Part shown: piece by piece, positions 3,236 to 53,828 of the stretch
How positions within the stretch are numbered: the stretch's first letter is position 1
Layout: each line of letters begins with the position of its first letter
Origin: Azoarcus taiwanensis
Lineage (GTDB): Bacteria; Pseudomonadota; Gammaproteobacteria; Burkholderiales; Rhodocyclaceae
NCBI RefSeq assembly: GCF_012910885.1
Contig: NZ_WTVM01000008.1
Span: 1 to 57,864, forward strand
Length of the DNA stretch: 57,864 nt
Reading direction: 5' to 3'
The notes under the pieces: generated by a model
Seen by the model: only the letters and a program-made list of their open reading frames with translations
Database searches by the model: none
What the model was told of the DNA's origin: nothing
Made by a program: the position numbers and the translations under genes

Positions 3236-4062
3236 GCCTGTCTGCTGGCTTCCTGAAAGGGTCTCGCGGTCCCCTGTTTTACACACTGCACTCAACATCA
3301 ACAAGTCCGAGGTGCCGTGGTGTAGTGCTCGTTGCGCAGCCCTTTGCCGAGGAGCAGAACAAATCCCGCAGAATGGTTGCGTTGCAGGCACGCGCCCTGG
3401 CCTTGGACGGTTGGGTCGTGATGGTGCCGGACCTCTACGGATGCGGCGACAGTCATGGCGACTTCGGCGAGGCCGACTGGCAAGGATGGCTGGACGACCT
3501 CGACGCTTGCCTCACCCATCTGCGCCGGACTCACGGAGGTCCGGTGGTGTGTCTGGGGGTTCGCGCCGGCTGCCTGCTGCTGTCGCAGTTCGCGCAGCAG
3601 CGAGATGCGCTTGAGCCTGTGGCTACCATCTTCTGGCAACCGGTGCTGGACGGAAACCTCTTTCTGATGCAGTTTCTTCGTTTGCGCGTGGCCGCCGGGA
3701 TGATTGGCGGCAATAAGGAAAGTACCAGGGATTTGCGCGCGAGGCTTACGGCAGGCGAGTCGCTGGAGATTGCCGGCTACATGCTTTCACCCAAGCTGGC
3801 CTCAGGCCTTGCGGAATCACGGCTGGAAGCGCCGAGAACGGGGCCGGTGCATTGGTTCGAAGTCGTGTCCTCGGACGATGCTGGTCTGTCAGTCCAGAGC
3901 AGCAAGTGCATCGACGAATGGCGAAGCTCAGGCATAGAGGTGCATGCCACAACCTGCACAGGTGAGCCGTTCTGGAGTGCCCAGGAGATTCGGGAGGTGC
4001 CGAGCTTGATCGAGCTCACGCGGGCAGCGGTGGCTGACGCCGAAAGCGGAGTGCCAGCATGA
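3232..4062 (+). CDS. exosortase A system-associated hydrolase 2
   Basis: 276 aa, an alpha/beta-hydrolase fold protein matching the family named hydrolase 2 of the exosortase A system (TIGR03101 type). Typical features are VVLVAQPFAEEQNKSRRM near the N-terminus and VPDLYGCGDSHGDFGEADW. The nucleophile elbow reads LGVRAGCL: the usual Ser of G-x-S-x-G is Arg, so classical serine esterase chemistry is doubtful unless another residue serves. I chose the ATG at 3232 because it overlaps the previous stop (ATGA) and the longer frame reads back through the glycosyltransferase. It overlaps hydrolase 1 by 4 bases. The role in exopolysaccharide production is known only by association. Confidence 0.88.
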   Translation: MSLSAGFLKGSRGPLFYTLHSTSTSPRCRGVVLVAQPFAEEQNKSRRMVALQARALALDGWVVMVPDLYGCGDSHGDFGEADWQGWLDDLDACLTHLRRTHGGPVVCLGVRAGCLLLSQFAQQRDALEPVATIFWQPVLDGNLFLMQFLRLRVAAGMIGGNKESTRDLRARLTAGESLEIAGYMLSPKLASGLAESRLEAPRTGPVHWFEVVSSDDAGLSVQSSKCIDEWRSSGIEVHATTCTGEPFWSAQEIREVPSLIELTRAAVADAESGVPA

Positions 4063-5012
4063 CGGAACGTGCCATCATTTTCGACCGCCAGGGTGACGAA
4101 CTGATCGGCATACTCCATCCCGGTCAGTCCGAAGCACGGGTAGGTGTGCTCGTCATCGTAGGCGGCCCCCAATACCGCGTTGGCAGTCACAGGCAATTCG
4201 TACTGTTGGCGCGAGCCCTTGCTGCCGCCGGTATCCCTGCGTTCCGTTTCGACTATCGCGGGATGGGAGACGCCTCAGGAACAATGCGTAGCTTCGAGGA
4301 GGTGCAAGACGATATCGCCGCGGCCATCGACAGCTTCGTCGGGAGTGCGCCGACACTGGAAAAGGTGGTGTTGTGGGGGCTATGCGACGCTGCATCCGCT
4401 GCGATCGACTACGGTTGGCGCGACCCCCGTGTGGCGGGCCTTGTACTGCTCAATCCTTGGGTGCGAACGGAAGAAGGGCTGGCCAAGACCTTTCTCAAGC
4501 ACTACTACCTGCAGCGACTCACGAGCCTGACCTTCTGGTCGGGTTTGTGCCGGGGCAGGGTGAATCCGCTTACCTCGCTGCGCTCATTACTCATTCACGT
4601 CCGCAAGGCTGCGGGAGGTCAGTCCGAGTCCCCGGCCAATGGGCTCGACACCATGCTGGTGCCAGCATCGGATAGCCAGGACCGCCGCATCGAACAAACG
4701 CCACTAAAACCCGGCGAAACACTTCCGGTGCGAATGGCCGAGGGCTGGCGGCGCTTCAAGGGCCGCATACTGCTGATCCTGAGCGGCAATGACCTGACTG
4801 CCGCCGAGTTTCTCGAGACTGTGGGCTCATCCGACGCCTGGAGCGGCTTGCTCGAGGCACCGAATGTCAGTCGCCGTGACCTTCCCGATGCGACGCACAC
4901 CTTCTCCTGTCATGCGTGGCGTGCGCAGGTCGAGCACTGGACTCTGGAATGGCTGGGCGCCGAACCGGCGGTCGCTTGGACGACGGCATCCGTGGTCGAA
5001 CCCAGGGCATGA
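4059..5012 (+). CDS. exosortase A system-associated hydrolase 1
   Basis: 317 aa, alpha/beta hydrolase matching hydrolase 1 of the exosortase A system (TIGR03100 type). It has VLVIVGGPQYRVGSHRQFVLLA near the start, with each stretch as in the family, then FRFDYRGMGDASG. The nucleophile elbow reads WGLCDAAS, so Cys probably occupies the nucleophile position. The late SRRDLPDATHTFS segment supplies the expected catalytic His. The start overlaps the hydrolase 2 stop by 4 bases. The two hydrolases are regularly adjacent in XrtA loci; whether they act on acyl groups of the polysaccharide or of a carrier has not been shown to my knowledge. Confidence 0.9.
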   Translation: MTERAIIFDRQGDELIGILHPGQSEARVGVLVIVGGPQYRVGSHRQFVLLARALAAAGIPAFRFDYRGMGDASGTMRSFEEVQDDIAAAIDSFVGSAPTLEKVVLWGLCDAASAAIDYGWRDPRVAGLVLLNPWVRTEEGLAKTFLKHYYLQRLTSLTFWSGLCRGRVNPLTSLRSLLIHVRKAAGGQSESPANGLDTMLVPASDSQDRRIEQTPLKPGETLPVRMAEGWRRFKGRILLILSGNDLTAAEFLETVGSSDAWSGLLEAPNVSRRDLPDATHTFSCHAWRAQVEHWTLEWLGAEPAVAWTTASVVEPRA

Positions 5013-6755: not shown

Positions 6756-8162
6756 ATGCGCGACCTTCTGCTCTTCGGCATCATCGTCGGACTTATTCCC
6801 TTCATCCTGCGGCGACCGTGGCTCGGTGTCGTGGCCTGGTTCTGGATCGGTTTGATGGTTCCACAGGCACACACCTGGGGTTTCATGCGGACTTTCCCTC
6901 TGGCAATGCTCATCGGTGGGGTAACGCTCGCCGCGTTGGTCGTCAACCGTGATCGGCGCAATCTGCCGATGACGCGCGAGATGGTCATGATGTTCGTGCT
7001 GGCGGCCTACATGACGATGACCACCTATTTCGCGGTGTACCGCTCCGGTGCGTGGGCTCAGTGGGAGAGCGTGATGAAGATCTTGCTGATGACCTTCGTC
7101 ACACCAATGTTGATTTTTGGGCCGCGACGGATTGTGTGGGTCATTCTGGTTACGGTGGTGTCGCTGGGGTTCTATGGTTTCAAGGGCGGGCTTTTTACCA
7201 TCTCCACCGGGGGCAGCTACATGGTGCTCGGGCCACCCAGGTCGTTCATCTCGGGCAATACGTACATTGGGCTCGCCATGGTCATGGTGCTGCCGCTCAT
7301 TCTGGTTACCGCGCGGTTCTTCAATGAACGCTGGTTCGATTTGGGCTGGCCCCTGAAACAGAGCTGGTACAAGGGAATAGGGCTCGGGTTCTATGCCATG
7401 TTCTGGCTTACGGGCCTGGCGATCATCGCCACCTATTCGCGTGGGGCTTGGTTGGGTTTGCTCGCAGTTGCGCCCTTCGTCTTTCTGCGTATGCGACGAA
7501 AGTGGGCGATCGTCGCAGCGGCCGTGCTCGCTCTGGGTGTGGTCGGAATTGCGGCGCCCGACCGAATGGTCGAGCGGTGGCAGACCATCGGTGGCTACGA
7601 GGAAGACACTTCCGCAATGCAACGTATCCAGTCCTGGGGCGCCAACTGGAACATGGCGGTCGAACGCCCGTTGACTGGGATGGGCTTCAGAAACGTTGAG
7701 ATGGGGTACGCGTGGTGGATTTCGTACGCGAATTTCGAGGGCTACTGGCGGCACGCCTTGTCGCCCCATAGCATCTATTTCCAGATGCTCGGCCAGCACG
7801 GTTTCGGCGGTCTGTTCGTGTTCCTAACCTTGATCGCGTTTACTTGGCTGACGCTGGGACGAATCAAGAGACAAGCGAAAAAGGCCGACCAAAAGTGGCT
7901 GTCGGAGTACGCTTGGGCGATTCAGATTGCCTTTATCGGTTACCTGGTGTCAGGCGCGTTCCTGGACGTTGCCTATTTCAACCTTGTGTACGCCTTCATT
8001 GCGCTCGCAATTATCATGCGTCGCGAACTGGACGAAACTGCGGCCTTCAGTCCGGCTCAGTACCGACCTGTCTCACTACCCGCCGGTACTCAGGCGATTG
8101 GCGCAGGCGCACGGACTCAAGGGGTCGCGGCAGTGGGTGGAATGCACGTCAGGCGAGACTAA
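6756..8162 (+). CDS. putative O-glycosylation ligase, exosortase A system-associated
   Basis: 468 aa integral membrane protein with roughly ten hydrophobic segments. It matches the Wzy/WaaL-like family named PEP-system O-glycosylation ligase (TIGR03097 type). Family features seen are the N-terminal FGIIVGLIPFILRRPWLGV, the HTWGFMRTFPLAML segment, a large periplasmic loop around IATYSRGAWLG, and LSPHSIYFQMLGQHG, where the conserved His of O-antigen ligases lies. It probably polymerises or transfers lipid-linked glycan at the periplasmic face. It is the last gene of the rightward operon and ends 11 bases from the convergent deacetylase gene. Confidence 0.9.
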   Translation: MRDLLLFGIIVGLIPFILRRPWLGVVAWFWIGLMVPQAHTWGFMRTFPLAMLIGGVTLAALVVNRDRRNLPMTREMVMMFVLAAYMTMTTYFAVYRSGAWAQWESVMKILLMTFVTPMLIFGPRRIVWVILVTVVSLGFYGFKGGLFTISTGGSYMVLGPPRSFISGNTYIGLAMVMVLPLILVTARFFNERWFDLGWPLKQSWYKGIGLGFYAMFWLTGLAIIATYSRGAWLGLLAVAPFVFLRMRRKWAIVAAAVLALGVVGIAAPDRMVERWQTIGGYEEDTSAMQRIQSWGANWNMAVERPLTGMGFRNVEMGYAWWISYANFEGYWRHALSPHSIYFQMLGQHGFGGLFVFLTLIAFTWLTLGRIKRQAKKADQKWLSEYAWAIQIAFIGYLVSGAFLDVAYFNLVYAFIALAIIMRRELDETAAFSPAQYRPVSLPAGTQAIGAGARTQGVAAVGGMHVRRD

Positions 8163-11285: not shown

Positions 11286-12947
11286 TTAGGTCCGGCCGGA
11301 TTTTTCGAGTAAGGCGATGGTTAGCATTGCGCCGATGCAATCGTCCTGCATTCCTCTCCCCGTGTGCTGCCTCTCAAACAGGTCCACCATGCCAGAGCCG
11401 AAAACCTCGCGTATCCATTCCGAGTGCCCGATTATCCGGAACACGCTGTTGCGAAAGCCGCCATTTGTTCGCAACAGCCGCTCGAAGGCGGTTTCCTTCT
11501 CGGGCCTGCGCAGACTGGATGGCAATAGCCTGTTGCGGTAGTAGCGAAACAGCTTTGCGAGCTTTCGGCTGCGAGCCAGCCCTGGTCCCGCGGACACCGG
11601 CAACCCGGTCTTGTCGTGCTTGATTGCCCCAAGAGCCGGATTTATTGCGTTGATGATCTGTTTGTAGATTCGCGCATCCTTCCGTAAACCCCACGGTAGC
11701 CGTGTCGCGTAGTCAATGAACTCGTTGTCCAGGCCAGGAGTACGCACGTCCAGATGGTTTGCGTTCAGGCGTACGATGCCAAACACCATGCGTCTGCTGC
11801 GGTTCTCCATGATGTACTGTTGGCTGGCGTCCAGCCCATGCCTTCCACACGCGTAGCGCTGCATGAAGTCTTCGGTGAAGGCCTTGAAGACGGATGACTC
11901 GTTGTCCAACTCAAGTCGCCGAGCCCGGTGTTGCGCCAGCGCAAAGCGCTTGTCGCAAGCCTCCTGCATCCCCACAGGATGGAGAAACATGGCTGGATTC
12001 ATGAGTATGCCCTGCAAGAATCCATCCACCGTCGCGCCGCAGCCATGCTCTTGTGCGAGCACTCTTGATGCACCTGCGAGCCTCCAATGCCCAACGTTGA
12101 AATCGCCCGAGTCGAGATTCAAATCGAAGGACGAAACATCGGACATCCAGTCGCTTGCGTCAAACTCGACAAGATTTCGATCGAGCGTGGCCGCGATTTG
12201 TCGTGCTATTGGAAGCTCGTAGTCACCCAGGTCTTCCACATGGAAGAACAAGTCGTCTTCCTTCAGGAGGTCGATGCAACTCGCCACATTGCATCGTGAG
12301 TCGAGTCCGCCGGTAATCGGCCAAGCGATTCGACCTGGCTGCGAGGTCTCAAGTGCCCGGCGGTTTGCTCCCCGAACGGTTTCGATCCCCTCGTCAAGCC
12401 AGCGCGCACTCTCGGTCTCATTGGAATCGTTCGCTGTCGGCGCCCAGTAGCGTTCGAGTATCGCTGCCCCTCCCGGAGCCAGCCGCAGGCGAGTCGCGGG
12501 AGGCATCAGCGACACTCCCGCCAGAACCGTGCGTTCCCAGTTTGAGTGGTTCTGCAGCACGAACTGATGCACCCCGATCGGATCGGGTTTGTCGAAACCG
12601 AAGCGCACCATGTCCACTAGTCGGCTCGCGAAAAACGCCCTCCCATCACGCAGCCCCCAAAAAACTGGAACGGTCCCGAGTCGGTCCGAAGTCAGGACGA
12701 CGCAGCCTTCGTCAGCAAACGAAATCTCGAGCCACGAACCGTTCCGCTCGAGTGGGCTGTTCTGTGACAGGCGCGCCCGCCCGTCATGGATAAGCAACAA
12801 GCCATCAGCGGATTCACTGCGATACGTCTTGTCCAGCTCAAAACAGCCCTTTACGGTGTCCGTGACTCTATCCAAGGAGTGGATTTCCGCTGTTTCGCGA
12901 CCCGAGCCGAAAGCCTCAGGGAAGACCATGCCTTTGAGAACGATCAT
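11286..12947 (-). CDS. asparagine synthetase-like protein lacking the glutaminase Cys
   Basis: 553 aa. An N-terminal region with remnants of the Ntn glutaminase fold (LTSDRLGTVPVFWG, AFFASRL) precedes an ATP-pyrophosphatase synthetase domain with the PP-loop ITGGLDSR at 211-218. The protein starts MIVLKGM and has no Cys at position 2, so it cannot use glutamine through the usual N-terminal nucleophile. It should adenylate a carboxylate and pass it to free ammonia or to another amine, as beta-lactam synthetase relatives do. Members occur in many exopolysaccharide loci and their substrates are unknown. It follows the ATP-grasp gene on the same strand after a 113-base gap that holds a hairpin. 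Confidence 0.8.
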   Translation of the reverse strand: MIVLKGMVFPEAFGSGRETAEIHSLDRVTDTVKGCFELDKTYRSESADGLLLIHDGRARLSQNSPLERNGSWLEISFADEGCVVLTSDRLGTVPVFWGLRDGRAFFASRLVDMVRFGFDKPDPIGVHQFVLQNHSNWERTVLAGVSLMPPATRLRLAPGGAAILERYWAPTANDSNETESARWLDEGIETVRGANRRALETSQPGRIAWPITGGLDSRCNVASCIDLLKEDDLFFHVEDLGDYELPIARQIAATLDRNLVEFDASDWMSDVSSFDLNLDSGDFNVGHWRLAGASRVLAQEHGCGATVDGFLQGILMNPAMFLHPVGMQEACDKRFALAQHRARRLELDNESSVFKAFTEDFMQRYACGRHGLDASQQYIMENRSRRMVFGIVRLNANHLDVRTPGLDNEFIDYATRLPWGLRKDARIYKQIINAINPALGAIKHDKTGLPVSAGPGLARSRKLAKLFRYYRNRLLPSSLRRPEKETAFERLLRTNGGFRNSVFRIIGHSEWIREVFGSGMVDLFERQHTGRGMQDDCIGAMLTIALLEKSGRT

Positions 12948-12982
12948 GTGAGAAGGAAGAAACTCGTTGGAGTTGAGGGGTG

Positions 12983-13024
12983 AGCTTGGTGAGCACCCTG
13001 GCCAGCAGGGAGGCTCACCAGCTT
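12983..13024. other. intergenic long hairpin
   Basis: Inverted arms agcttggtgagc (12983-12994) and gctcaccagctt (13013-13024) enclose a second small stem, ccctg/caggg (12996-13000 and 13006-13010). It lies between the end of the ATP-grasp gene and the start of the asparagine-synthetase-like gene, both leftward. No T-run follows on the minus strand, so it is not a clear intrinsic terminator. It may stabilise or attenuate the transcript. Confidence 0.5.
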
Positions 13025-13060
13025 AATTGAACGGTCTGGATACTGGGGGCTTTCATTGCT

Positions 13061-14116
13061 TCAACTGCTACATTTGACACCTTCGGCGAACAACTTCGCA
13101 TGAGGAAGATCCATGTGTGCAGCAAAGCGCCGATCCGGGTCGCTGTTCAACTCGATGACGATCGGTCCGGAAGGCGTGACCGCAATGTCGATCCCGCAAA
13201 AGTTCATCTGAGGGAAGGCTGCGACCGCCCGATTCGCGAGCTCGATGCACTCCGGCCAGAAAGGGATCTCAAAACCCTTCAGGGTCGCGCCGGTGTCGGG
13301 GTGAGCATCATAAGAGTTGCGTTCAATGCTGAGGTCCAGCGCCTCAACCACGCGGCCAGTGTCGATATCGATTGGGCAAGCCAGCCCTCCAGTGGAGGTG
13401 TTGTCCACCTGGCTGCCAGCGCGACCAACTCGCAACATCCCTCCCCGCGTGACGAAACCGTCTTTAGTATGAATGACGATCAGGCGCAAGGTATTGACCG
13501 AATCGGGGTTAAGCCGTGCTAGCGCGGAGTGTTGAGTCAGATATTCCTCGATAATCGTACCGCTGCGGAAGTTCTTGAGCCGCTCTGTCCACTCCGCAAC
13601 TGAGTAAACCTCGTTGGAAAGTGGGTGATGTAACTCAAGCCGACCTTCGTTCATGACAACGTTCAGCGCGGCAAACTTTGAACCGCCAGAACCCTCGGCC
13701 GCCTTGAAGCAAAGCCTCTTTTCGATGTGACCCTGAAGTAATGCAGTGAGATCGAGTGCATTGCGTAGTGGCTTGTCGTTTGTGTCGCCCCCTCTGTCGG
13801 GATGGTAGAAGCCGAGAAAAGCGGCAGTAGGGAGCCCTCTCAAACTGAGAAGCGCTTTCTCTGCCAGCTTGTGCTGAGATAGTTTGCGGAATGAAGTCGG
13901 ATTGAGCTGGGACAGCTTCCTTTCGTACTGTTTTGAATTGACGTGTAGAAGGATAGTCCGCGTCCCGATACGTTCTCGCCAGAAGCGAGCAAGCATAAAA
14001 TAGTTCGGTCCTAAGGACCTGTAAAAGAACAAGACCACAAACTTAATAAAGCTATAAGAGAATAGAGCGAAATTATTTTCGCTCTTTCTCCAGAGTGCAC
14101 TAAGGAAGAATCGCAT
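13061..14116 (-). CDS. sugar-transfer associated ATP-grasp protein (first copy)
   Basis: 351 aa, matching the ATP-grasp family linked to sugar transfer (ATPgrasp_ST type). A basic, partly hydrophobic N-terminus (FALFSYSFIKFVVLFFYRSL) precedes the ATP-grasp fold: CFKAAEGSGGSKFAAL for the nucleotide-binding loop, DSVNTLRLIVIHTKDG, GGLACPIDIDTG, and the metal site GIDIAVTPSGPIVIELNSD. ATP-grasp enzymes make an acyl phosphate and ligate it to an amine, so this one could add an amino acid to a sugar. The 5' part is visibly AT-richer than its neighbours. A related gene lies 147 bases upstream on the same strand. Confidence 0.82.
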   Translation of the reverse strand: MRFFLSALWRKSENNFALFSYSFIKFVVLFFYRSLGPNYFMLARFWRERIGTRTILLHVNSKQYERKLSQLNPTSFRKLSQHKLAEKALLSLRGLPTAAFLGFYHPDRGGDTNDKPLRNALDLTALLQGHIEKRLCFKAAEGSGGSKFAALNVVMNEGRLELHHPLSNEVYSVAEWTERLKNFRSGTIIEEYLTQHSALARLNPDSVNTLRLIVIHTKDGFVTRGGMLRVGRAGSQVDNTSTGGLACPIDIDTGRVVEALDLSIERNSYDAHPDTGATLKGFEIPFWPECIELANRAVAAFPQMNFCGIDIAVTPSGPIVIELNSDPDRRFAAHMDLPHAKLFAEGVKCSS

Positions 14117-24991: not shown

Positions 24992-25711
24992 TCAGGCGGT
25001 CTTGCGGGCCACGATCAGCACCGAGTGACTCAGCAGCGCACCCAGTGGCGGGATGAGCTTGAGCATGGCGCGCAACGGCGCGGACTCGAGCAGCGGCTGC
25101 AGGCTCTGCAGACGACCGGGGGCGATTGGAACCCAATGGGTTTCGACGGCGAAGCCGGTTTGCTCGAGCTGGCGGCGCAGTGCGTCGGCGGTTTCGTAGC
25201 GCAGATTGGCAGGGCGGCGCAGCAGCTTCTTGAGCAGGTGCGGTGCGCAGTGCGCGTTGAGGGCATCTACCCATAGCGTGCCGCCAGGTTTGATGGCGGC
25301 GGCCATCTCGGCCAGCGCCTGGTCTGAGCTTGACAGCGCCTGCAGCACGCCGAAACAGAGGATGCCCTCGGCGCTTTGCGGTGCGAGGGGCAGCCGGGTG
25401 ACGTCGCCGACCACCCAACCGCCCACCGTTGGGCTGCGTTGCGCGGCCTTGGCGACGCTGGGTTGGGAGTAATCCACGCCGATGACTTCAAGCCCCTCGT
25501 CGGCAAGCATGCGGCTGTAACTGCCCGCGCCACAGCCGATGTCGATCCAGCGCGAGCCGGCCGGGGCGCCGGTCCAGTGTCGCTTGAAAGCACGGATGCG
25601 CGTCTGCAACCCGCTCTCGCTCCAGCCGGCAATGCCGGCATCGTGGTCGAGCGCCTGGCCACGCTCGGTGAAGCGACGGCGCCAGTGTTCTTCGAACTGG
25701 GAGCGAGGCAT
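24992..25711 (-). CDS. class I SAM-dependent methyltransferase
   Basis: 239 aa from the ATG at 25711 (MPRSQFEEHW); the frame is open to 25852 but that part lacks family similarity. Motif I is SRWIDIGCGAGSYSRML, with EVIGVDYSQPSV for the acidic loop that binds the ribose. GWVVGDVTRLPL and ILCFGVLQALSSSDQAL complete the Rossmann core. It methylates a small molecule or sugar using S-adenosylmethionine. It lies 43 bases upstream of the VanZ gene on the same strand, and divergent from the acyl carrier protein gene. Together with the carrier cassette it may tailor the substituent made there. Confidence 0.87.
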   Translation of the reverse strand: MPRSQFEEHWRRRFTERGQALDHDAGIAGWSESGLQTRIRAFKRHWTGAPAGSRWIDIGCGAGSYSRMLADEGLEVIGVDYSQPSVAKAAQRSPTVGGWVVGDVTRLPLAPQSAEGILCFGVLQALSSSDQALAEMAAAIKPGGTLWVDALNAHCAPHLLKKLLRRPANLRYETADALRRQLEQTGFAVETHWVPIAPGRLQSLQPLLESAPLRAMLKLIPPLGALLSHSVLIVARKTA

Positions 25712-25936
25712 GTCAGTGGTGGGCGCGGGATGTGAGCGGCATGGCGGTATTGTAGCCGGCGATGGCTGTACGGGCGGGATCACCCTTGCAAGTGGCGAGA
25801 CAATGTCGGTAAATCGCATGTTGCGGGAAGCGACCAAACGCGTCATGTCCAACTATAATTGCGCCCGATCCCGGCGGCCCCACACCGGTGGCGTGCACTG
25901 CAGGGGCGCTCGCCGAGAGACGATAAACAAAAGGGA

Positions 25937-26194
25937 GTGAAGATCTTGGATGCTCGTAAGGAAGTGCTGTCGATACTCGACGATGTGCTCAGCCTGAACG
26001 GTCGTGCTGCGGCCTTCGGTGACGACACCCCGCTGCTAGGTGCAGTGCCGGAGCTGGATTCGATGGCGGTGGTCGGTGTGATCAACATGTTGGAGGAGCG
26101 CTTTGGCTTCTTCGTGGACGACGACGAGATCGACGGCGCGACCTTCGAGACAGTGGGCACGCTGGTAGCGTTTGTCGAGGGCAAGCTGGGTTGA
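25937..26194 (+). CDS. acyl carrier protein of the exopolysaccharide cassette
   Basis: 85 aa from GTG 25937; a TTG at 25946 has better spacing to the AAGGGAG ribosome binding site (25931-25937) and would give 82 aa. The protein is a helical carrier with the phosphopantetheine attachment site ELDSMAVV (Ser in DSM rather than the usual DSL). It continues into EERFGFFVDDDEI, the conserved acidic helix. It would hold an activated acyl or aminoacyl group as a thioester, loaded by the AMP-forming ligase at 30051-31670. It is the only rightward gene in this part, sits divergent to the methyltransferase and converges with the amidotransferase-like gene. Confidence 0.88.
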   Translation: MKILDARKEVLSILDDVLSLNGRAAAFGDDTPLLGAVPELDSMAVVGVINMLEERFGFFVDDDEIDGATFETVGTLVAFVEGKLG

Positions 26195-26225
26195 GCAGAG
26201 CTTAGCCGCGAATAGGCGCAAAGCG

Positions 26226-28061
26226 TCAGGGTTGCTTGAGACGCGCCTCGTGGGTGGCCATCCACAACTCCATCATCATCAGAACCCACACCATCTCGCC
26301 GTAATAGCCGGGGTGGGCTGGCAGGTGCGTGTCGAGCAGTTCGTCGATGAAGCCCGGCCGGATGATGCCGCGGGTCTTCAGGCTGGCGAGGGTGTCGCGG
26401 GCGAGCGCCCTGAGGCCGGGGTGTTGGCAGGTCCAGACGCCGAAGGGCAGGCCGAAACCGTGTTTTTTCTTGGCGATGATCTCGTCCGGCAGGAAGCCGC
26501 GCAGCGCTTCCTTGAAGAACCAGCGCAGGGTCAGGCCCTTGAGCTTCCAGTCTGGTGGGATGGAGAGCGAGAACTCCACGAGCTCATCCGATAGCAGCGG
26601 AAAACCGACATCCACGCCGGCCAGTTCGGTGGTGCCGACGACCTTGGGCAAGTCGTTGTCGGCAAGAGTGTACTTCCAGTCCCACTCGAGCATGCGGTTG
26701 ACCAGGTTGTCGGTGCCGGATGCGGCCCAGGTTGCGCGTTGCAGCGCGTGCGGGGCCTGGCGGTCGATGCGCGTGAGGAAGTCCGGTTCGAACAGATTGG
26801 CGGGGCCAAGACGTTCGAGCAGGTTGTACATGTTCAGGCGGTCGGGCATCGGCACCCTGGCCTGTTCGACGTAGCTCACCCCTTTCTTGATCAGCGGCAC
26901 GCGGTCCATGCCGGGCAGGCGCAGGGCGGGCTCGAGCGCGGCCTTGCGCATCAGGCCGGGGATGTGCTCGTACCAGCCGAAGATGCGTTGTTTGGCGTAG
27001 CGGACGTTGCCGCCGAAGAGTTCGTCGCCACCGTCGCCGGCCAGCAGCTTGGTGATGCCGTCGGCCTGGGCGCGACTGGCGCAGACCCATGCAGGCACCG
27101 CGGAAGAGTTGCCGAACGGCTGGTCATAGTGGGTGGCGACCTTGGGGATGCCGTCGAGCAGGTCGTCCGGGGTGACGTAGTACTCGCGGTGGTCCACGCC
27201 AAAGCGCTTGGCGGCGATACGCGCGTATTCCATCTCGTCGTACCCGCTCGCATCGAATCCGATGGAGTAGGACCGTGCGGGCTGACCCAGCACCTTGGTG
27301 AGCATGCCGGCGACCGTGGAGCTGTCGGTGCCGCCGGAGAGAAAACACCCCACTTCGCCGCTCTCGGCCTCACGTGCCACCGAGGCTTGCACGATGTCGA
27401 GAAACTGCTGCTTGCGCGCTTCCAGGTCGCCGAATTCGTGCTCATAAAAGCGCGGCTGCCACCAGCGGGCGGCTTCGCAGGCCTCGGGCGACCAGTCGAG
27501 TTGGTGGGCGGCATCCAGCCGGCGAACACCCTGGAAGATGGTCTCGGGTGCGGGGATGACGTGAAAGTAGAGGTAATCGTAGATCGCTTGCGGCAAGATC
27601 TCACGATTGCCGCCGGGTAGCGCATCGGCGCGGTCGGAGAAGGCGAGGGTGCTGTTCAGGGCCGAGTAGCAGAGTGGCCGGGTGCCGAAACGGTCGGTGA
27701 TGAGCGTCGCGCGCGGCCGTGCGGTGTCGAGCAGCACCACCGAGAATCGTCCCTTGGCGTGCGTGGGTGTGGCTTCGCCCCAGCGTTCAAGTGCCTCCAG
27801 CCATGCGGCAGCCGGACCGACACGGCGGGCGAGGGCGTCGAGCTCGTCGGAACCGAAAAGCGGCAGCCCCCCGACCAGGCAGATCATCGGGCCGGCACGG
27901 TGGGCCGAGACGTGCTTGTCGTGCGCGACGAAGCCGCCTTCGAATTCGATCAGCGCATATTCGGCGCGGTCTATGGCGCTGAGGTCAGTCTGGGCTTTGG
28001 CAGAAGTGGCGGCAATCGAGCCGAAGATGCGTGCGGACAAGAGCTGCTCCATAGTCGGCAC
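26226..28061 (-). CDS. asparagine synthase-like amidotransferase without N-terminal Cys
   Basis: 611 aa; ATG at 28052 (MEQLLSARIFG) is an equally good start. The N-terminal glutaminase-like half retains KGRFSVVLLD and ITDRFGTRPLCYS, but Cys2 is absent. The synthetase half has the PP-loop FLSGGTDSST (242-248) and LLAGDGGDELFGGN, the usual AsnB signature, and KKKHGFGLPFGVW near the end. It should adenylate a carboxylate and form an amide with an amine or ammonia. It is related to the amidotransferases described as exosortase A associated. Position next to the carrier protein, ligase and decarboxylase suggests a common product. Confidence 0.87.
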   Translation of the reverse strand: MPTMEQLLSARIFGSIAATSAKAQTDLSAIDRAEYALIEFEGGFVAHDKHVSAHRAGPMICLVGGLPLFGSDELDALARRVGPAAAWLEALERWGEATPTHAKGRFSVVLLDTARPRATLITDRFGTRPLCYSALNSTLAFSDRADALPGGNREILPQAIYDYLYFHVIPAPETIFQGVRRLDAAHQLDWSPEACEAARWWQPRFYEHEFGDLEARKQQFLDIVQASVAREAESGEVGCFLSGGTDSSTVAGMLTKVLGQPARSYSIGFDASGYDEMEYARIAAKRFGVDHREYYVTPDDLLDGIPKVATHYDQPFGNSSAVPAWVCASRAQADGITKLLAGDGGDELFGGNVRYAKQRIFGWYEHIPGLMRKAALEPALRLPGMDRVPLIKKGVSYVEQARVPMPDRLNMYNLLERLGPANLFEPDFLTRIDRQAPHALQRATWAASGTDNLVNRMLEWDWKYTLADNDLPKVVGTTELAGVDVGFPLLSDELVEFSLSIPPDWKLKGLTLRWFFKEALRGFLPDEIIAKKKHGFGLPFGVWTCQHPGLRALARDTLASLKTRGIIRPGFIDELLDTHLPAHPGYYGEMVWVLMMMELWMATHEARLKQP

Positions 28062-28175
28062 GAGGCCGAATCATCATCGGCGAATGGTCGGCCAAATTGG
28101 ATGACATATCAAGCGAGGAAGTCACGAAACAGCGTTTTGTGGCGGACGATGGTGAGTGCCCGGTGTTGGGCTTTT

Positions 28176-28247
28176 TTCGCGGCTTACGCCGCTCCCACAG
28201 GTAGTGGGAGCGTTTGTGGGAGGGGTGGGAGCGGCGTGAGCCGCGAA
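28176..28247. repeat. REP pair (REPIN) upstream of RAYT
   Basis: ttcgcggcttacgccgctcc (28176-28195) faces its inverted copy ggagcggcgtgagccgcgaa (28228-28247) across a G-rich spacer. The pair ends 24 bases before the RAYT start codon and is the left bracket of that gene. Confidence 0.92.
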
Positions 28248-28271
28248 GGTTTCCGATAAAATGCTGTGGTC

Positions 28272-28727
28272 ATGAATGCGCAGTCTCATCTTCTCCGAAA
28301 AGGCCGCTTCTCTGAAACTGGACGTATCTATCTCGTGACCACCGTCATACGTGAAAGAGCGCCCGTATTCAGCGACTTGCAGATTGCACGAACTGCCATC
28401 GCCCAGTTACGTCATGTGACAAATGCCTTTGCGTGCGAGACGCTCGCCTTTGTGCTCATGCCAGATCATCTGCACTGGTTGGTGCAGTTGAACCGGGCCG
28501 AGTTGTCGCGAGCAGTCGGGGCATTCAAGGCAAACTCGGCTCGGCAGGTCAATCTCAGGCTTCGAATGAATGGGCAGGCTTTACGGCAGAAGGGCTTTCA
28601 TGATCATGCGCTACGACGGGAGGAGAGTCTGCTTGATCTGGCCCGGTACGTCGTGATGAATCCCGTTCGGGCTGGCTTGGTGCGGAGACCCGGTGAGTAT
28701 CCACATTGGGATGCCTTTTGGGTTTGA
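28272..28727 (+). CDS. REP-associated tyrosine transposase (RAYT)
   Basis: 151 aa from ATG 28272 (GTG 28266 is possible). It is a Y1 transposase of the IS200-like/REP-associated class. The HUH metal-binding motif is His-Leu-His in LMPDHLHWLVQ, and the catalytic Tyr is in LARYVVMNPVRAGLV. It nicks and joins single-stranded DNA at REP hairpins. It is bracketed by REP pairs at 28176-28247 and 28756-28818 that share the same arm as all the other REP loci in the window, which makes it their likely mobiliser. Length and motifs are intact, so it may be active. Confidence 0.92.
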   Translation: MNAQSHLLRKGRFSETGRIYLVTTVIRERAPVFSDLQIARTAIAQLRHVTNAFACETLAFVLMPDHLHWLVQLNRAELSRAVGAFKANSARQVNLRLRMNGQALRQKGFHDHALRREESLLDLARYVVMNPVRAGLVRRPGEYPHWDAFWV

Positions 28728-28755
28728 GCGTGTTGCGGCGCGCTCGACGGTGGAG

Positions 28756-28818
28756 TTCGCGGCTTACGCCGCTCCTACAGGTGGTGGTGGCGCTTGTGGC
28801 AGGGGTGTGTGCCGCGAA
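28756..28818. repeat. REP pair (REPIN) downstream of RAYT
   Basis: ttcgcggcttacgccgctcc (28756-28775) is followed by a shortened inverted arm ending gtgtgtgccgcgaa (28805-28818). The second arm has lost the central gagcggc block. It lies 28 bases after the RAYT stop and 13 bases before the end of the decarboxylase gene. Confidence 0.88.
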
Positions 28819-28831
28819 TGCTCGACAACAC

Positions 28832-30073
28832 TTACACCAGCACCTCCACCACCTCCGGATGCCCCAGAAACCGTTGCGGGCTGGCGCTCGCGCCGTAGGC
28901 GCCGGACTGGAAGACCACGACGAGATCGCCTTCCTGCGCATGGCCGAGCGGCATCTTGTCACCGAGCAGGTCGAGCGGTGTACACAGCGGGCCGACCACC
29001 GAGGCGGGTTCGACGCCGTCTGGCGGGGTCATGCGGTTGCCGATGGCGACCGGGTAGTTCTTGCGGATGACCTGGCCGAAGTTGCCGGAGGCGGAGAGGT
29101 GATGATGCAGACCGCCGTCGGTGACCAGGAAGGTCTGGCCGCGCGAGATCTTGCGGTCGAGCACGCGGGCGACGTAGATGCCCGCCTCGCCAACGAAGTA
29201 GCGACCAAGCTCGAGTACGATCTCGGCGTCGGGCAACTTGTCGGCTGCTTCCGCGACGATGGTGGCGAGATTGTCACCGATGGGGGCGAGGTCAAGGGGT
29301 TGTTCGCCAGGAAAGTACGGAATGCCGAAACCGCCGCCGAGGTTGAGAAAACGCACTGGTGACGGGGCATGTTCGGCCAGGCGTAGCGCAAGGTCGAAGC
29401 ACTTGCGTTGGGCCTCGACGATGGCCTCCGGGCGCAGGTTTTGCGAGCCGGCGAAAAGGTGGAAACCCTCGAAGGCGAGGCCGGCGCGGCCGATGGCTTG
29501 CAGCAGTTCCGGCACGGCCTCGGCGTCGACGCCAAACTGCTTGGGCCCGCCGCCCATTTTCATGCCCGAAGCCTTGAGCTCGAAATCCGGATTGACGCGC
29601 ACCGACACCCTTGCGGGCAAACCCAGCTCGGCCGACGCGGCGTCGAGAATCGGCACCTCGCGCGGTGATTCGATGTTGACCATTATGCCGGCGGCGACCG
29701 CCTGGCGAAGCTCAGCGTCGGTTTTCCCGGGGCCGGCGAAGCTGATCTCCTGTGGGTTGGCTCCGGCGTCGAGCGCGACCATGAGCTCTCCGGCCGAGGC
29801 GACGTCGATGCCGTCCACCAGCCTGGCCATGTGGCACACCAGCGCCGGCATGGGGTTGGCTTTCATCGCGTAATGCAGCTTGATGCTGGCGGGCAGCGCG
29901 GCGCGCAGCGTCGCGACGCGGGCATCGAGCAGCCGGCGGTCGTAGGCGTAGAAGGGGGTGCGGCCGACACGAGCGGCGAGTCGGCTCAACGGCTGGCCGC
30001 CGATGAGGAGTTCGCCGTCGGCGCTTTGAAACTGGGCGATCGGGGCGTGTTCAGGCGTCTTGCGGTCGGTCAT
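28832..30073 (-). CDS. PLP-dependent decarboxylase, exosortase A system-associated
   Basis: 413 aa from the ATG at 30073 (MTDRKTPEHAP); the frame is open to 30280 but that part overlaps the ligase gene. It is a fold-III (alanine racemase-like) ornithine/diaminopimelate decarboxylase relative, matching the exosortase A associated family (TIGR03099 type). The PLP lysine is Lys71 in HYAMKANPMP. NLGGGFGIPYF is the phosphate-binding glycine loop, and VVGPLCTPLDLL places the active-site Cys from the second subunit. It overlaps the ligase stop by 23 bases. It probably decarboxylates an amino acid, free or carrier-bound, to an amine for decoration of the glycan; the substrate is unknown. Confidence 0.92.
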   Translation of the reverse strand: MTDRKTPEHAPIAQFQSADGELLIGGQPLSRLAARVGRTPFYAYDRRLLDARVATLRAALPASIKLHYAMKANPMPALVCHMARLVDGIDVASAGELMVALDAGANPQEISFAGPGKTDAELRQAVAAGIMVNIESPREVPILDAASAELGLPARVSVRVNPDFELKASGMKMGGGPKQFGVDAEAVPELLQAIGRAGLAFEGFHLFAGSQNLRPEAIVEAQRKCFDLALRLAEHAPSPVRFLNLGGGFGIPYFPGEQPLDLAPIGDNLATIVAEAADKLPDAEIVLELGRYFVGEAGIYVARVLDRKISRGQTFLVTDGGLHHHLSASGNFGQVIRKNYPVAIGNRMTPPDGVEPASVVGPLCTPLDLLGDKMPLGHAQEGDLVVVFQSGAYGASASPQRFLGHPEVVEVLV

Positions 30074-31670
30074 TGTTCTGCAGCCGTTCCAGGTATTCGG
30101 TGGAAAGTGTCTTGCGGTCGATCTTGCCGTTGGGATTGCGCGGCAGTGGGCCCGGGCGCACCTGCACATGGGTAGGCACCATGTAGGCGGGCATGCGGGT
30201 GCGGCACTCGGCGAGCAAGGCAAGCATATCCAGATCGCCACCTTCCGGCGGCGTGACGATGATGCAGATGGCCTGGCCAAGGGTGTCGTGCGGTACGCCG
30301 AAGGCGGCGCATTCGCCGACCATGCGGGTGGCGTAGAGAACTTCCTCGACCTCGGTGGGGCTCACGCGATAGCCGGAGGTCTTCATCATCTCGTCGCGAC
30401 GGCCGATGAAGTAGAGGTAGCCCTCTTCATCCATGCGCACGTTGTCGCCGGAGAAGACCGCGATCTCGGGCAGAACCAGCCCGGATTCGCGTCCACCGAC
30501 GCCGGCCGGCAGTGGCTTGAAGCGCTCGGCGGTTTTCTCCGGGTCGTTCCAGTAGCCTTGGGCCACCAGAGCGCCGCGTTGGACGAGCTCGCCGGGTTCG
30601 TTCGGTGCGCAGGGGCTGCCGTCGTCGCGCAAGACCAGCACTTCGGAGTTGGGGATGGCCTTGCCGATGGAGTCCGGCCGGCGGTCGACCTCTTCGGGCG
30701 GCAGGTAGGTGGCCCGGAAGGCTTCGGTGAGGCCGTACATCAGGTAGGGGCGTGTGGCAGGCAGCATGCCACGCAGCCGGGTGAGCGTCTCGAGCGGCAT
30801 GCGGCCGCCGGTGTTGGCGATGTAGCGCAGGTGCTCTGCGATGGACGCTGGCCATTCGAGCTGGGAGAGCTGAATCCACAACGGAGGCACCGCGGTGAGA
30901 CCGGTAATCTGTTCGCGTTCCATTGCCTTGATGACGTCGCGCGGCATCAGGTAGTTGAGCAGCACGACGCGGGCCCCGGCGTGAAATGCGGTAGTGAGCT
31001 GCGAGAAGCCTGCGTCGAAGGATAGTGGCAGCGCGGCGAGCAAGGTATCGTCGGCGCGGTTCTCGAGGTACTGCGCGACGCTCTTCCCGCCGGTGACCAT
31101 GTTCCGGTGCGATAACACCACGCCCTTGGGGCGGCCGGTACTGCCGGAGGTGTAGAGGATGGCTGCGACGTCGGTGTCGATGACGCGATGGCCTTGAGCC
31201 GATGGCGCCTCGAGCAGCGCTGCCCAGGCGTGGGTCGTGGTGCCGGCGATTTCGGGCAGGCTGTCGGCGGCGCCGGTGACGACGAGATGGCGCAGATCGT
31301 GGCATTCGGCGAGTGTTTCTACCAGTGTGGTCGCGCGTTCGGGCGAGGTAATCAGCGCACGCACGTTGCAGTCACGCAGGATATGGCCTACCTGCTCGGG
31401 CTTGAGAATCGGGTTGATCGGTACGAATACGCCACCGGCCGCGCTGGCGCCGAAGAAGGCTGCTACCGTTTCGAAGCGCTTGTCGAGATAGATCGCGACC
31501 CGCTCGCCGCGAGACAGGCCGAGATGGAGCAGGCCGTTTGCGACGCTGCCCACCAGGTCTTCGAGCTCACCGTAGCTGAGGGTGTCTTGGGCGAAGGTCA
31601 GTGCCGACGCGTCGGGCGCGCGCGATGCGGAGGCCTGGATCAGCTGGTGCAGCAGGTGGGTGTGGTTCAT
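30051..31670 (-). CDS. AMP-forming acyl ligase, exosortase A system-associated
   Basis: 539 aa adenylate-forming enzyme of the exosortase A associated ligase family (TIGR03098 type). Motifs: YTSGSTGRPKGVV from residue 173 (AMP/phosphate loop), MYGLTEAFRATYLPP (adenine and acyl pocket), a GDNVRMDEEGYLYFIGRRDEMMKTSGYRV hinge region seen in parts, and the C-terminal catalytic Lys in NPNGKIDRKTL. It activates an acid as an acyl-adenylate and should load the carrier protein at 25937, much as DltA loads DltC. The gene overlaps the decarboxylase gene, so ligase and decarboxylase are made together. The acid is not known. Confidence 0.92.
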   Translation of the reverse strand: MNHTHLLHQLIQASASRAPDASALTFAQDTLSYGELEDLVGSVANGLLHLGLSRGERVAIYLDKRFETVAAFFGASAAGGVFVPINPILKPEQVGHILRDCNVRALITSPERATTLVETLAECHDLRHLVVTGAADSLPEIAGTTTHAWAALLEAPSAQGHRVIDTDVAAILYTSGSTGRPKGVVLSHRNMVTGGKSVAQYLENRADDTLLAALPLSFDAGFSQLTTAFHAGARVVLLNYLMPRDVIKAMEREQITGLTAVPPLWIQLSQLEWPASIAEHLRYIANTGGRMPLETLTRLRGMLPATRPYLMYGLTEAFRATYLPPEEVDRRPDSIGKAIPNSEVLVLRDDGSPCAPNEPGELVQRGALVAQGYWNDPEKTAERFKPLPAGVGGRESGLVLPEIAVFSGDNVRMDEEGYLYFIGRRDEMMKTSGYRVSPTEVEEVLYATRMVGECAAFGVPHDTLGQAICIIVTPPEGGDLDMLALLAECRTRMPAYMVPTHVQVRPGPLPRNPNGKIDRKTLSTEYLERLQNNDRPQDA

Positions 31671-31874
31671 GGTCTGTCCGAGTCTTTATGACAAGTCTGT
31701 GGAAGTTTAGAGCATCGCCTCCCGGGTGGGTGTGGCAAATTGCTGGCTTGCGGCCTGTTCACCCGCCTCCTGCCTAGCGATTGAGCGGCGTCGCTGGGCT
31801 GATTCTTCCCGGTCGCCCCATGTAAAAGGCGAAGAACTCGTGTGACCGCGCCTCTTGTGTTCGATCGCCGGCAG

Positions 31875-32564
31875 TCAGCCCGGCGGTGCAAGCCTGAGCG
31901 TCGGGCGGCTGGGCGCGCTGGCGCTCAAATGGAGGTAGGGAGGCTGACCGAGCAGGGAGAGCTGCCACTTACCGATGACGACGAATGTCGCAGTGGTGAT
32001 ATCGCGCAGGCCGAGGCGCTTGTGTGAAGCAAGCGATGCCGGGTTGAAGGCCGATATCCGGGACACCGACCAGCGCTTGCCGGTGTCGAGCATGTGGCGG
32101 TTGGCTGCGTCCCAAAGGCGTGAGAACGTGCGGCCGATGCGATAGCGCGGTTCGACATACACGTCGAAATCCCAAACGCAGGTATCGGGCGAGGCGAGCT
32201 CGTAACGGCAGCGCACCTCGTCCTCTTCGTAGGCGTTTTCCATCAGCCAGAGAAAACCGGCGAACTCCTCGCGCATGTATGCGCCGAAGCACAAGGCGCC
32301 GTCCGCATAGCGACGGGCGATCACCTCGGGTGGCCGTGGGAAGGCTGCTACCGCCGGATCGTGTTCAGGCACGGGGCGAATGACGAGTGCCGCACCCGGG
32401 CGTTCCTTCTCGGGGGGGGGCTCGCCGACCGGTTGGGCGACGAGGTAATAGCGGATGATCCGCGCCCGGTCCCGCGTCAGCCGCGACAGAGCATGCGCTG
32501 CCGCATACCACAGGCCGTTTGCGAGCCCGAGCTCGGCGATCGAGTGTCGAAGGCGCGCCAGCAT
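31875..32564 (-). CDS. GNAT-fold acetyltransferase-like protein
   Basis: 229 aa. The middle reads FGAYMREEFAGFLWLMEN, then WDFDVYVEPRYRIGRTFSRLWDAAN, the beta4-alpha3 region of the GNAT fold with a weak version of the acyl-CoA loop, and SRISAFNPASLASHKRLGL, which is the conserved C-terminal GNAT pattern. It is likely the transferase that moves an acyl group in the carrier-protein pathway, as it is encoded immediately upstream of the ligase on the same strand with a 204-base gap. That gap holds no further gene. The fold call is good; donor and acceptor are inferred. Confidence 0.75.
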   Translation of the reverse strand: MLARLRHSIAELGLANGLWYAAAHALSRLTRDRARIIRYYLVAQPVGEPPPEKERPGAALVIRPVPEHDPAVAAFPRPPEVIARRYADGALCFGAYMREEFAGFLWLMENAYEEDEVRCRYELASPDTCVWDFDVYVEPRYRIGRTFSRLWDAANRHMLDTGKRWSVSRISAFNPASLASHKRLGLRDITTATFVVIGKWQLSLLGQPPYLHLSASAPSRPTLRLAPPG

Positions 32565-32585
32565 TGCCCGCGTCTAGCGCCGCAG

Positions 32586-32657
32586 TTCGCGGCTTACGCC
32601 GCTCCCACCCTTCCCACAAGCGCCTCCAGCACTTATGGGGGCGGAGTAAGCCGCGAA
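32586..32657. repeat. REP pair (REPIN)
   Basis: ttcgcggcttacgccgctcc (32586-32605) and inverted gcggagtaagccgcgaa (32641-32657); the second arm has lost part of the gagcggcg block. It is the first of two REP pairs in the 262-base gap between the GNAT-like gene and argB. Confidence 0.9.
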
Positions 32658-32702
32658 TGCCAGCGCCCCATTGGGCACTAGCGCGCGCCTCTCAGGCAGC
32701 TT

Positions 32703-32774
32703 TTCGCGGCTCACGCCGCTCCTACCTTTCCCACAAGCGCCTCCAGCACCTGTAGGAGCGGCGTAAGCCGCGAA
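32703..32774. repeat. REP pair (REPIN)
   Basis: ttcgcggctcacgccgctcc (32703-32722) and inverted ggagcggcgtaagccgcgaa (32755-32774). The spacer (ttcccacaagcgcctccagc) is the same as in the preceding pair at 32586, so the two are recent tandem relatives. It lies 52 bases before the argB stop. Confidence 0.92.
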
Positions 32775-32826: not shown

Positions 32827-33843
<1,017 letters not shown>

Positions 33844-33944
33844 TCAACGCAGCACAGCGCCCGCATAATTTCACGGGAAACTGAGCCTCGTGATGGTAGC
33901 ATCGCGCCTGTTCTGCGAAGTATGCGTTTGGAAAAGGATTGCGG

Positions 33945-35288
33945 ATGAACGTCACGGTTTTCGGCACGGGTTACGTTGGTCTCGTAACGGGTGCTTGTCT
34001 TGCCGACGTTGGGCACAACGTCATGTGCATCGATATCGACGAAGCCAAGATCGAGGGGCTTAAACAAGGGCGGATTCCGATCTACGAACCCGGCCTCGAG
34101 CCAATGGTTTTGCGCAACCATGAGGAAGGCCGCCTGCACTTCACGACGGATGCAGCCGAGGGCGTGAAATTTGGTGCGTTGCAGTTCATCGCTGTGGGTA
34201 CGCCACCCGATGAGGACGGCTCGGCCGATCTGCAGTACGTGCTGGCAGTGGCGCGCACGATCGGCGAGCACATGGACGACTACAAGGTGATCATCGACAA
34301 GTCCACCGTGCCGGTGGGAACGGCCGACAAGGTGCGCACTGTGGTCGCCGGCGTGTTGGCCGAACGCGGCACGGATCTGCCGTTCGACGTGTGCTCGAAC
34401 CCGGAGTTCCTCAAAGAAGGTGCGGCGATCGAGGACTTTACGAAGAGCGCCCGCATCGTCGTGGGCACCGACTCGGAACGGGTACGCGAACTGATGCGCG
34501 AATGCTACGCGCCCTATAGCCGCAACCACGACAAACTCATGTTCATGGATGTGCGCGCGGCGGAACTCACCAAGTACGCAGCCAATGCGATGCTGGCGAC
34601 CAAGATCAGTTTCATGAACGAGATCGCGAACCTTGCGGAAAGGCTGGGCGCGGATGTGGAGCAGGTTCGCCTCGGCATCGGCTCCGACCCGCGCATCGGT
34701 TACCACTTCATCTACCCTGGCTGTGGCTACGGCGGCTCGTGCTTCCCAAAGGACGTGCAGGCGCTAGCTCGGACCGCGGTGCAGGTGGGTTATGAGCCGG
34801 AACTGCTGAATGCAGTCGAGGCTGTGAACAATCGCCAGAAGCAAGTGCTTTTCGACAAACTCAGCCAGGCGTTTGACGGTGATCTGACGGGTCGTACGAT
34901 CGCTGTCTGGGGCTTATCCTTCAAACCCAACACCGATGACATGCGCGCGGCGCCCAGCCGGGTCCTGATGGAGTCTCTCTGGGATGCGGGAGCGAGGGTA
35001 CGTGCGTTCGACCCGGAGGCCATGCACGAGACCATCCGGATCTACGGCGAACGCGACGGCCTCACGCTGGTGGAGCACCCCAATGAGGCCGTCGAGGGTG
35101 CCGACGCGCTGGTCGTGTGCACCGAATGGAAGCAGTTCCGCACCGTCGATTTCACTTGGCTCAAGAGCAAGCTCAAGCATCCGGTGCTGGTCGACGGCCG
35201 CAACATGTACGACCCCCGCCAGGTCAAGGCCGCGGGTTTGATGTACTACGCCATCGGCCGTGCGGATTCGCTCAAGCCGGTGATGTGA
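33945..35288 (+). CDS. ugd: UDP-glucose 6-dehydrogenase
   Basis: 447 aa from the ATG at 33945; AAAGGA lies about 7 bases upstream. It oxidises UDP-glucose to UDP-glucuronate in two steps. The NAD-binding start is [21 protein letters not shown], the catalytic Cys266 is in YGGSCFPKD, and Lys210/Asn214 lie in [13 protein letters not shown]-glucuronate is a precursor for acidic exopolysaccharide, so the gene fits the neighbouring locus even though it is separated by argB. It converges with hsp20 across two REP pairs. Confidence 0.97.
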
Positions 35289-53747: not shown

Positions 53748-53828
53748 ATCTTGGACCAGAGGTCTAGAGTGCGGTGTCCGGCTGAGTGATACTCAATGGG
53801 CGCCGCAAACAATATACGGGTGGACAGC

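Follow-up and report, generated by a model that had tools for sequence, protein, structure and literature searches.

A freestanding carrier protein, an amino-acid ligase-like enzyme and a BtrK-like decarboxylase in a polysaccharide region of Azoarcus taiwanensis: a candidate route to beta-aminoacyl groups

The stretch of Azoarcus taiwanensis DNA described here (the window) comprises 57,864 nucleotides of contig NZ_WTVM01000008.1 (C319), part of a draft genome of 4.2 Mb. It carries a freestanding acyl carrier protein, a ligase, a decarboxylase and two hydrolase-fold proteins, which we consider together as a cassette. An earlier note, made from the sequence alone, had listed most of these genes together with several possible accessory enzymes, and all the genes that it named were found in the window. 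The two hydrolase-fold proteins are cassette partners that it missed. The cassette genes are:

25946-26194, plus strand: carrier, a freestanding acyl carrier protein (Pfam PP-binding; Ser39 in LDSMAVV, numbered from the TTG start)
30051-31670, minus strand: ANL ligase of family TIGR03098, with a VinN/BolO-like amino-acid pocket (Asp219, Thr287, Arg319)
28832-30073, minus strand: fold-III pyridoxal phosphate (PLP) decarboxylase of family TIGR03099, BtrK-like, overlapping the ligase end by 23 nt
3157-4062, plus strand: TIGR03101 (hydrolase 2), alpha/beta-hydrolase-like, with Arg replacing the nucleophile
4059-5012, plus strand: TIGR03100 (hydrolase 1), alpha/beta hydrolase fold, triad positions occupied by Cys, Asp and His

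The ligase and decarboxylase genes overlap as noted earlier, the decarboxylase ATG at 30073 lying within the last ligase codons. The carrier gene, which starts with TTG preceded by AAAGGGAG, lies on the opposite strand to both. It is convergent with an asparagine-synthase-like gene and divergent from a methyltransferase gene, and is thus not in the ligase/decarboxylase operon.

The ligase matched TIGR03098 with 808 bits (cut-off 592) and the decarboxylase matched TIGR03099 with 634 bits (cut-off 478), so that both family assignments made earlier hold at the curated cut-offs. When the central 241 residues of the ligase were compared with the PDB, only two sequences passed an E-value of 1e-25, 3wv4 and 3wvn, both of which we take to be VinN, with which the residue numbering fits. 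VinN residues Asp230, Ser299 and Arg331 align with Asp219, Thr287 and Arg319 of the window ligase, the Thr at the Ser299 position being a conservative change. Across all 42 aligned ligases, the Asp and the Arg are invariant (42/42 each) and the middle position is Ser in 25 or Thr in 17. As a control, the genome's 18 other AMP-binding enzymes were aligned, none of which has all three residues; the first two are found in one of them only (L165), which has Asp at the third position. The Arg column is gapped in nine of these controls, which leaves the result unaltered because none of the nine has both of the other residues.

The nearest solved relative of the decarboxylase is BtrK, which scored 365 bits against the family profile, compared with 247 bits for the next chains, 6KNH (a probable diaminopimelate decarboxylase) and 2P3E (a diaminopimelate decarboxylase). 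The PLP lysine, Lys57, is kept in all 52 aligned decarboxylases (52 of 55 non-redundant sequences). Two stretches, KMGG-P-QFG and CTP-D, are common to the decarboxylase and BtrK and do not occur in 2P3E. P-QFG and CTP-D are also present in 6KNH, however, and therefore mark a group wider than BtrK. The Thr of CTP is found in 51 of the 52 family members. BtrK is reported to decarboxylate a glutamyl-carrier protein (PMC7857480).

The carrier matched Pfam PP-binding with an E-value of 3.5e-5 (24.4 bits, cut-off 20.8), and its Ser is present in all 42 aligned rows. Its distribution was followed in 369 genomes of the window's class, using E-value limits of 1e-120 for TIGR03099, 1e-10 for the carrier subfamily and 1e-140 for TIGR03098. 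The decarboxylase was found in 41 genomes, as was the carrier, and the ligase in 45, including 36 of the 41 decarboxylase genomes. Carrier and decarboxylase occurred together in 38 genomes, the carrier alone in three, the decarboxylase alone in three and neither in 325 (p = 1e-44). The three decarboxylase genomes that lack the carrier are 75, 81 and 87% complete; at a completeness of 90% or more, all 36 decarboxylase genomes have it. Three carriers lacked a decarboxylase call: that of G362 lies beside a decarboxylase cut by the contig end, and those of G045 and G212 are weak matches, G045 also having a weak TIGR03100. Chance does not account for the joint occurrence of carrier, ligase and decarboxylase. 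The earlier note had named a lack of such co-occurrence, beforehand, as the outcome that would count against it; this outcome did not appear, the carrier being present in 38 of the 41 decarboxylase genomes.

The gene order was examined in 121 loci: the window, 40 loci from all the remaining decarboxylase genomes of the class sample, and 80 named loci. The latter were the best 80 of at least 584 matches to the window protein and are therefore skewed to close relatives; they include floc-forming and sludge bacteria such as Zoogloea, Thauera and Accumulibacter. Two loci (L122 and L066) have identical decarboxylases and apparently represent one contig, leaving about 120 distinct decarboxylases. 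The ligase was found in 113 loci, directly upstream of the decarboxylase in 99, and the carrier in 84. Among these 84, TIGR03101 directly follows the carrier in 58, and the carrier is divergent and next to the ligase in 44. In the 81 loci with about 9 kb on either side, the ligase was present in 78, the carrier in 64 and all five genes in 47. For each of the 17 well-flanked loci that lack a carrier nearby, one was found elsewhere in the genome. Nine of these belong to class-sample genomes, L122 is on the same contig as one of the nine, and the remaining seven were followed individually: L072 from Thauera and L075, L078, L081, L086, L106 and L117 from Accumulibacter all have the carrier elsewhere (E <= 1e-33). 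Two less-flanked Accumulibacter loci, L114 and L129, were searched as well; the L114 genome has the carrier and the L129 genome does not. In seven of the eight genomes of named loci with a distant carrier, TIGR03100 lies about 1 kb behind it. In 14 of the 38 class genomes that have both, the carrier is not within 15 kb of the decarboxylase, and in seven of these it is still accompanied by TIGR03100.

The two hydrolase-fold proteins of the window scored 337 bits against TIGR03100 (cut-off 168) and 257 bits against TIGR03101 (cut-off 203). In the majority of loci with this pair, the carrier is followed immediately by TIGR03101 and then by TIGR03100. TIGR03100 exceeded its cut-off in 29 of the 369 genomes, all 29 of which have the decarboxylase; of the 28 that also have the carrier, 24 encode it on the carrier strand and no more than 1.5 kb downstream of that gene. 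In an alignment of 35 sequences (34 of 49 plus the window), Cys109 at the nucleophile position is invariant (35/35), and Asp245 and His280 are each found in 33. TIGR03101, in contrast, has Arg at the nucleophile position in all 36 aligned sequences (36 of 49, the window included). The model of TIGR03100 has an alpha/beta hydrolase fold (mean pLDDT 86) and resembles lipases and feruloyl esterases most closely, and its VIA-align list consists mostly of esterases and lipases; no PhaC-like acyltransferase is among the 50 VIA-align rows, which excludes nothing. A Cys nucleophile encoded beside a carrier is more suggestive of thioester transfer than of hydrolysis, although a role for TIGR03100 as a free thioesterase is possible. 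We tentatively propose, as a rather doubtful arrangement, that TIGR03100 and the pseudo-hydrolase TIGR03101 might form a two-subunit thioester transferase that would take a beta-aminoacyl group off the carrier and pass it to polysaccharide precursors, with the two pocket classes of the ligase (see below) supplying two different groups.

From the family assignments, the pocket residues, the carrier serine, the conserved linkage and the co-occurrence, we infer the chemistry that follows, including its exact amino acid, acceptor and transferase. The ligase would adenylate an aspartate-like amino acid at its side-chain carboxyl and load it onto the carrier phosphopantetheine. The BtrK-like decarboxylase would then take off the free alpha-carboxyl, giving a beta-aminoacyl thioester, most likely beta-alanyl, on the carrier. 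TIGR03100 with its partner TIGR03101, or a GNAT- or FemAB-type enzyme where one is present, would transfer this group as an amide or ester onto a sugar in the exopolysaccharide or in its precursor. Loading of the carrier followed by decarboxylation is likely, and on this point the co-occurrence, the pocket and the likeness to BtrK support and sharpen the suggestion of the earlier note that the ligase loads an amino acid which is then decarboxylated. Aspartate as the substrate and beta-alanyl as the product are our best guess. The pathway as a whole, including transfer to an exopolysaccharide sugar, we hold to be the probable course with moderate confidence.

The earlier note had modelled the cassette on DltA/DltC, in which a ligase and a lone carrier decorate a surface polymer. 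In that system, the alpha-carboxyl of D-Ala is activated and there is no decarboxylation. The window carrier, however, matched DltC at an E-value of only 5e-4, with 20 bits against a cut-off of 68, and the cassette includes a decarboxylase. Dlt-type D-alanylation was consequently considered less likely. VinN/VinL/VinO, BtrI/BtrK and BolO/BolC/BolN are better precedents, because in these systems the amino acid is activated at its side-chain carboxyl and loses the alpha-carboxyl while bound to the carrier. Like the vicenistatin and bolagladin trios, the cassette combines a freestanding carrier with a ligase and a decarboxylase. VinN/VinL/VinO are reported to load an amino acid by its side-chain carboxyl on a lone carrier, with PLP-dependent decarboxylation there, as we would expect for the cassette; their substrate, however, is 3-methylaspartate, and they are followed by VinM, VinK and a polyketide synthase (PKS). 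Butirosin biosynthesis resembles the cassette in that BtrK acts on a carrier-bound amino acid, but it converts glutamate to gamma-aminobutyrate (GABA), the acceptor is an aminoglycoside, and its loading enzyme, BtrJ, has another ligase fold. A close parallel is bolagladin from Burkholderia gladioli, with a VinN-like ligase that retains the three pocket residues, a freestanding carrier and a BtrK-like decarboxylase, for which a route from aspartate to beta-alanyl-carrier has been proposed; beta-alanine does not rescue a bolN deletion (available part of PMC7756342). Bol differs in supplying a lipopeptide made by a non-ribosomal peptide synthetase (NRPS), and TIGR03100 and TIGR03101 are not mentioned for it in that part of the text. 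The logic of loading and then decarboxylating on a carrier is so far known from antibiotic pathways, and the open-licence PMC literature, as covered by titles and the starts of abstracts, yielded no paper linking TIGR03098 or TIGR03099 to BtrK, VinN or carrier-bound decarboxylation.

These precedents also bear on the substrate. Ligase positions 220 and 287 co-vary in 114 of 114 cases, being Ala/Thr in 76 and Tyr/Ser in 38. A tree of the 42 ligases built without these two columns required two switches, forced by the starred branches, although it was made by a quick method and contains long branches. We read this as two putative substrate classes. Instead of aspartate, the carrier might then bear glutamate, which would yield GABA as in the BtrK reaction, or methylated aspartate, the two pocket classes corresponding to two substrates; VinN, which is reported to use 3-methylaspartate, and the glutamyl-carrier substrate of BtrK give this some weight. 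However, aspartate is the proposed substrate of BolO, which has these three pocket residues too, and no methylaspartate mutase was seen among the window genes scanned, in a search not directed at it. We regard these substrates as possible but less than probable; they concern the amino acid only and are compatible with the proposed pathway.

Several observations weigh against the pathway as proposed. When the full-length ligase was used to search the PDB, the multi-domain linear gramicidin synthase A came first and VinN after it, and with the ligase family profile gramicidin synthase and another peptide synthetase likewise ranked above VinN (by summed domain scores). The ligase occurs without the decarboxylase in nine of the 369 genomes; the carrier is missing from eight of these and the D/S/R pocket is retained in eight, so that the ligase may also work alone, perhaps on CoA. 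The ligase neighbours in four of these genomes are assorted, including sugar-nucleotide epimerase-like, HI0933-like, LpxB and redoxin genes, among others. TIGR03100 is absent or under its cut-off in 12 of the 41 decarboxylase genomes, and one Accumulibacter draft (L129) with a decarboxylase has neither carrier nor TIGR03100. In the window itself, 21 kb separate the carrier from TIGR03100 and TIGR03101. Exosortase A above its cut-off is missing from 14 of the 41 decarboxylase genomes, 11 of which have no match at E <= 1e-30, and 17 neighbours scanned in five of these 11 included no glycosyltransferase family match; one of the 17, shortly before the carrier in L052, is FemAB-like. The literature searched reported neither enzyme assays nor sugar analyses for these genes. 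The exosortase A gaps and the glycosyltransferase-free neighbours imply that the family name is only partly right and that the link to exopolysaccharide is contextual.

The same gaps, together with the characterized relatives, which in the accounts available serve small molecules, favor a variant in which the carrier chemistry is the same but the beta-aminoacyl group enters a small secreted or signalling molecule, as in the antibiotic pathways. We consider this unlikely. Exosortase A was over its cut-off in 27 of the 41 decarboxylase genomes versus 46 of the 328 others (p = 5e-12); the window holds TIGR03097 and at least two glycosyltransferase-like genes; a DegT-type aminotransferase gene is nearby in 29 of the 121 loci; and the scanned neighbours, in which no directed search was made, included no NRPS, PKS or VinM-type second aminoacylation enzyme. 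It is most improbable that the ligase is a plain acyl-CoA ligase, the decarboxylase a stray diaminopimelate (lysine-pathway) or amine decarboxylase and the carrier unrelated, since the NCBIfam name "acyl-CoA ligase" and the ligases that exist without decarboxylase and carrier are set against an invariant amino-acid pocket, a BtrK-type decarboxylase and tight co-occurrence with the carrier.

Attachment of the product of the proposed pathway to exopolysaccharide is plausible from gene context. The exosortase A gene of this draft genome is on another contig (C265). Bacterial polysaccharides bear amino acids as amides, including an aspart-4-yl group, and beta-alanine does not occur in the accessible text of the same source (PMC10609480); a literature search for beta-alanine substituents of polysaccharides yielded nothing specific. 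The cluster table of a Rubrivivax transposon study contains neither ligase nor decarboxylase, and that source therefore gives no cassette phenotype (PMC3684757). A Burkholderia exopolysaccharide cluster contains a TIGR03100-like gene (PMC3584217), and the available parts of that report and of those on Thauera (PMC4784049) and Aquincola (PMC9850573) have nothing on the cassette.

The accessory and context genes of the window are:

26226-28061, minus strand: asparagine-synthase-like enzyme without the glutaminase Cys, accessory
31875-32564, minus strand: GNAT-fold protein, accessory acyltransferase candidate
24992-25852, minus strand: class I methyltransferase, accessory, rare (Methyltransf_11, E 2e-19)
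6756-8162, plus strand: TIGR03097 putative O-glycosylation ligase, exosortase A associated (context)
33939-35288, plus strand: nucleotide-sugar 6-dehydrogenase (context; possible uronic acid supply; TIGR03026 over cut-off)

The asparagine-synthase-like enzyme matched Pfam Asn_synthase at an E-value of 1e-76 and the glutaminase domain in part only. An MCGI or MCGL stretch is absent from this protein and from all 24 reading frames examined, the window included, consistent with the lack of the glutaminase Cys remarked on earlier. The GNAT-like protein had no NCBIfam or Pfam match at E <= 0.001, but in its alignment Acetyltransf_1 matched 11 of 15 members at E <= 1. Its AlphaFold2 model (mean pLDDT 91) has a GNAT fold by Foldseek, with matches such as WecD, and this predicted fold bears out the label. 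The earlier note had counted these enzymes and the methyltransferase among the genes of the cassette. Counted at E <= 1e-6 within the DNA fetched around the 121 loci, however, the asparagine-synthase-like gene was present in 26, the GNAT in 15 and the methyltransferase in four, and a core role for them was set aside: they are optional. The GNAT gene is associated with the asparagine-synthase-like gene (nine loci shared, p = 6e-4) and with the methyltransferase (4/4 methyltransferase loci, the window included, p = 2e-4). Neighbour comparison was based on 134 representative genes from seven loci. There is an alternative accessory set: a 719-residue tandem-GNAT/FemAB-like protein with two Acetyltransf_6 matches in 31 of the 121 loci, and a DegT-type aminotransferase in 29, of which 27 are shared with the 719-residue protein (p = 2e-20). 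The GNAT and the tandem-GNAT protein share one locus, which is not a significant avoidance (p = 0.11). The DegT enzyme suggests that an amino sugar may be the acceptor in the genomes that have it.

Some loci have other arrangements. In G332 (L159:5765-9541), one of the nine genomes with a ligase but no decarboxylase, an asparagine-synthase-like gene, a carrier and a TIGR03098-like ligase are directly adjacent. This ligase is below the family cut-off and has lost the Asp and the Ser/Thr while keeping the Arg; the Gly at the amino-binding Asp position points to a substrate that is perhaps not an amino acid. L071 and L072 each encode another TIGR03099-like decarboxylase a few kb from the first, and a Cys-less asparagine-synthase-like gene separates the two. 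A HalD-like halogenase and a short AMP-binding protein are encoded near the decarboxylase-carrier pair of G254 (L062:13037-15860), and the TIGR03098 ligase of this genome is on a different contig; the locus suggests a different use of the same chemistry.

Elsewhere in the window, an IS200-like transposase gene (Y1_Tnp; 28266-28727, plus strand) lies between the asparagine-synthase-like gene and the decarboxylase. It is flanked by palindromic repeats, and such elements were found at 28156-28247, 28756-28816, 32566-32657 and 32683-32774, presumably a REP/RAYT-like arrangement. A second, more divergent asparagine-synthase-like protein adjoins a weak match to a RimK-related ligase family (11286-14116, minus strand); the two may be a further pair of amide-forming enzymes in the same polysaccharide region. 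This region also includes an ArgB acetylglutamate kinase over its cut-off (32827-33789, minus strand). Distant relatives of the anti-phage pair IteA/IteS, both well under the curated cut-offs, are encoded at 53796-57336 on the plus strand.

If the proposed pathway is correct, four families named for exosortase A and an unnamed carrier subfamily would gain one coherent chemistry. The load-then-decarboxylate logic of antibiotic pathways would then serve a biofilm polymer, and decarboxylated amino acids would decorate exopolysaccharide in a way not known before. The matrix would bear positively charged beta-aminoacyl groups, with expected consequences for flocculation, metal binding and surface charge.

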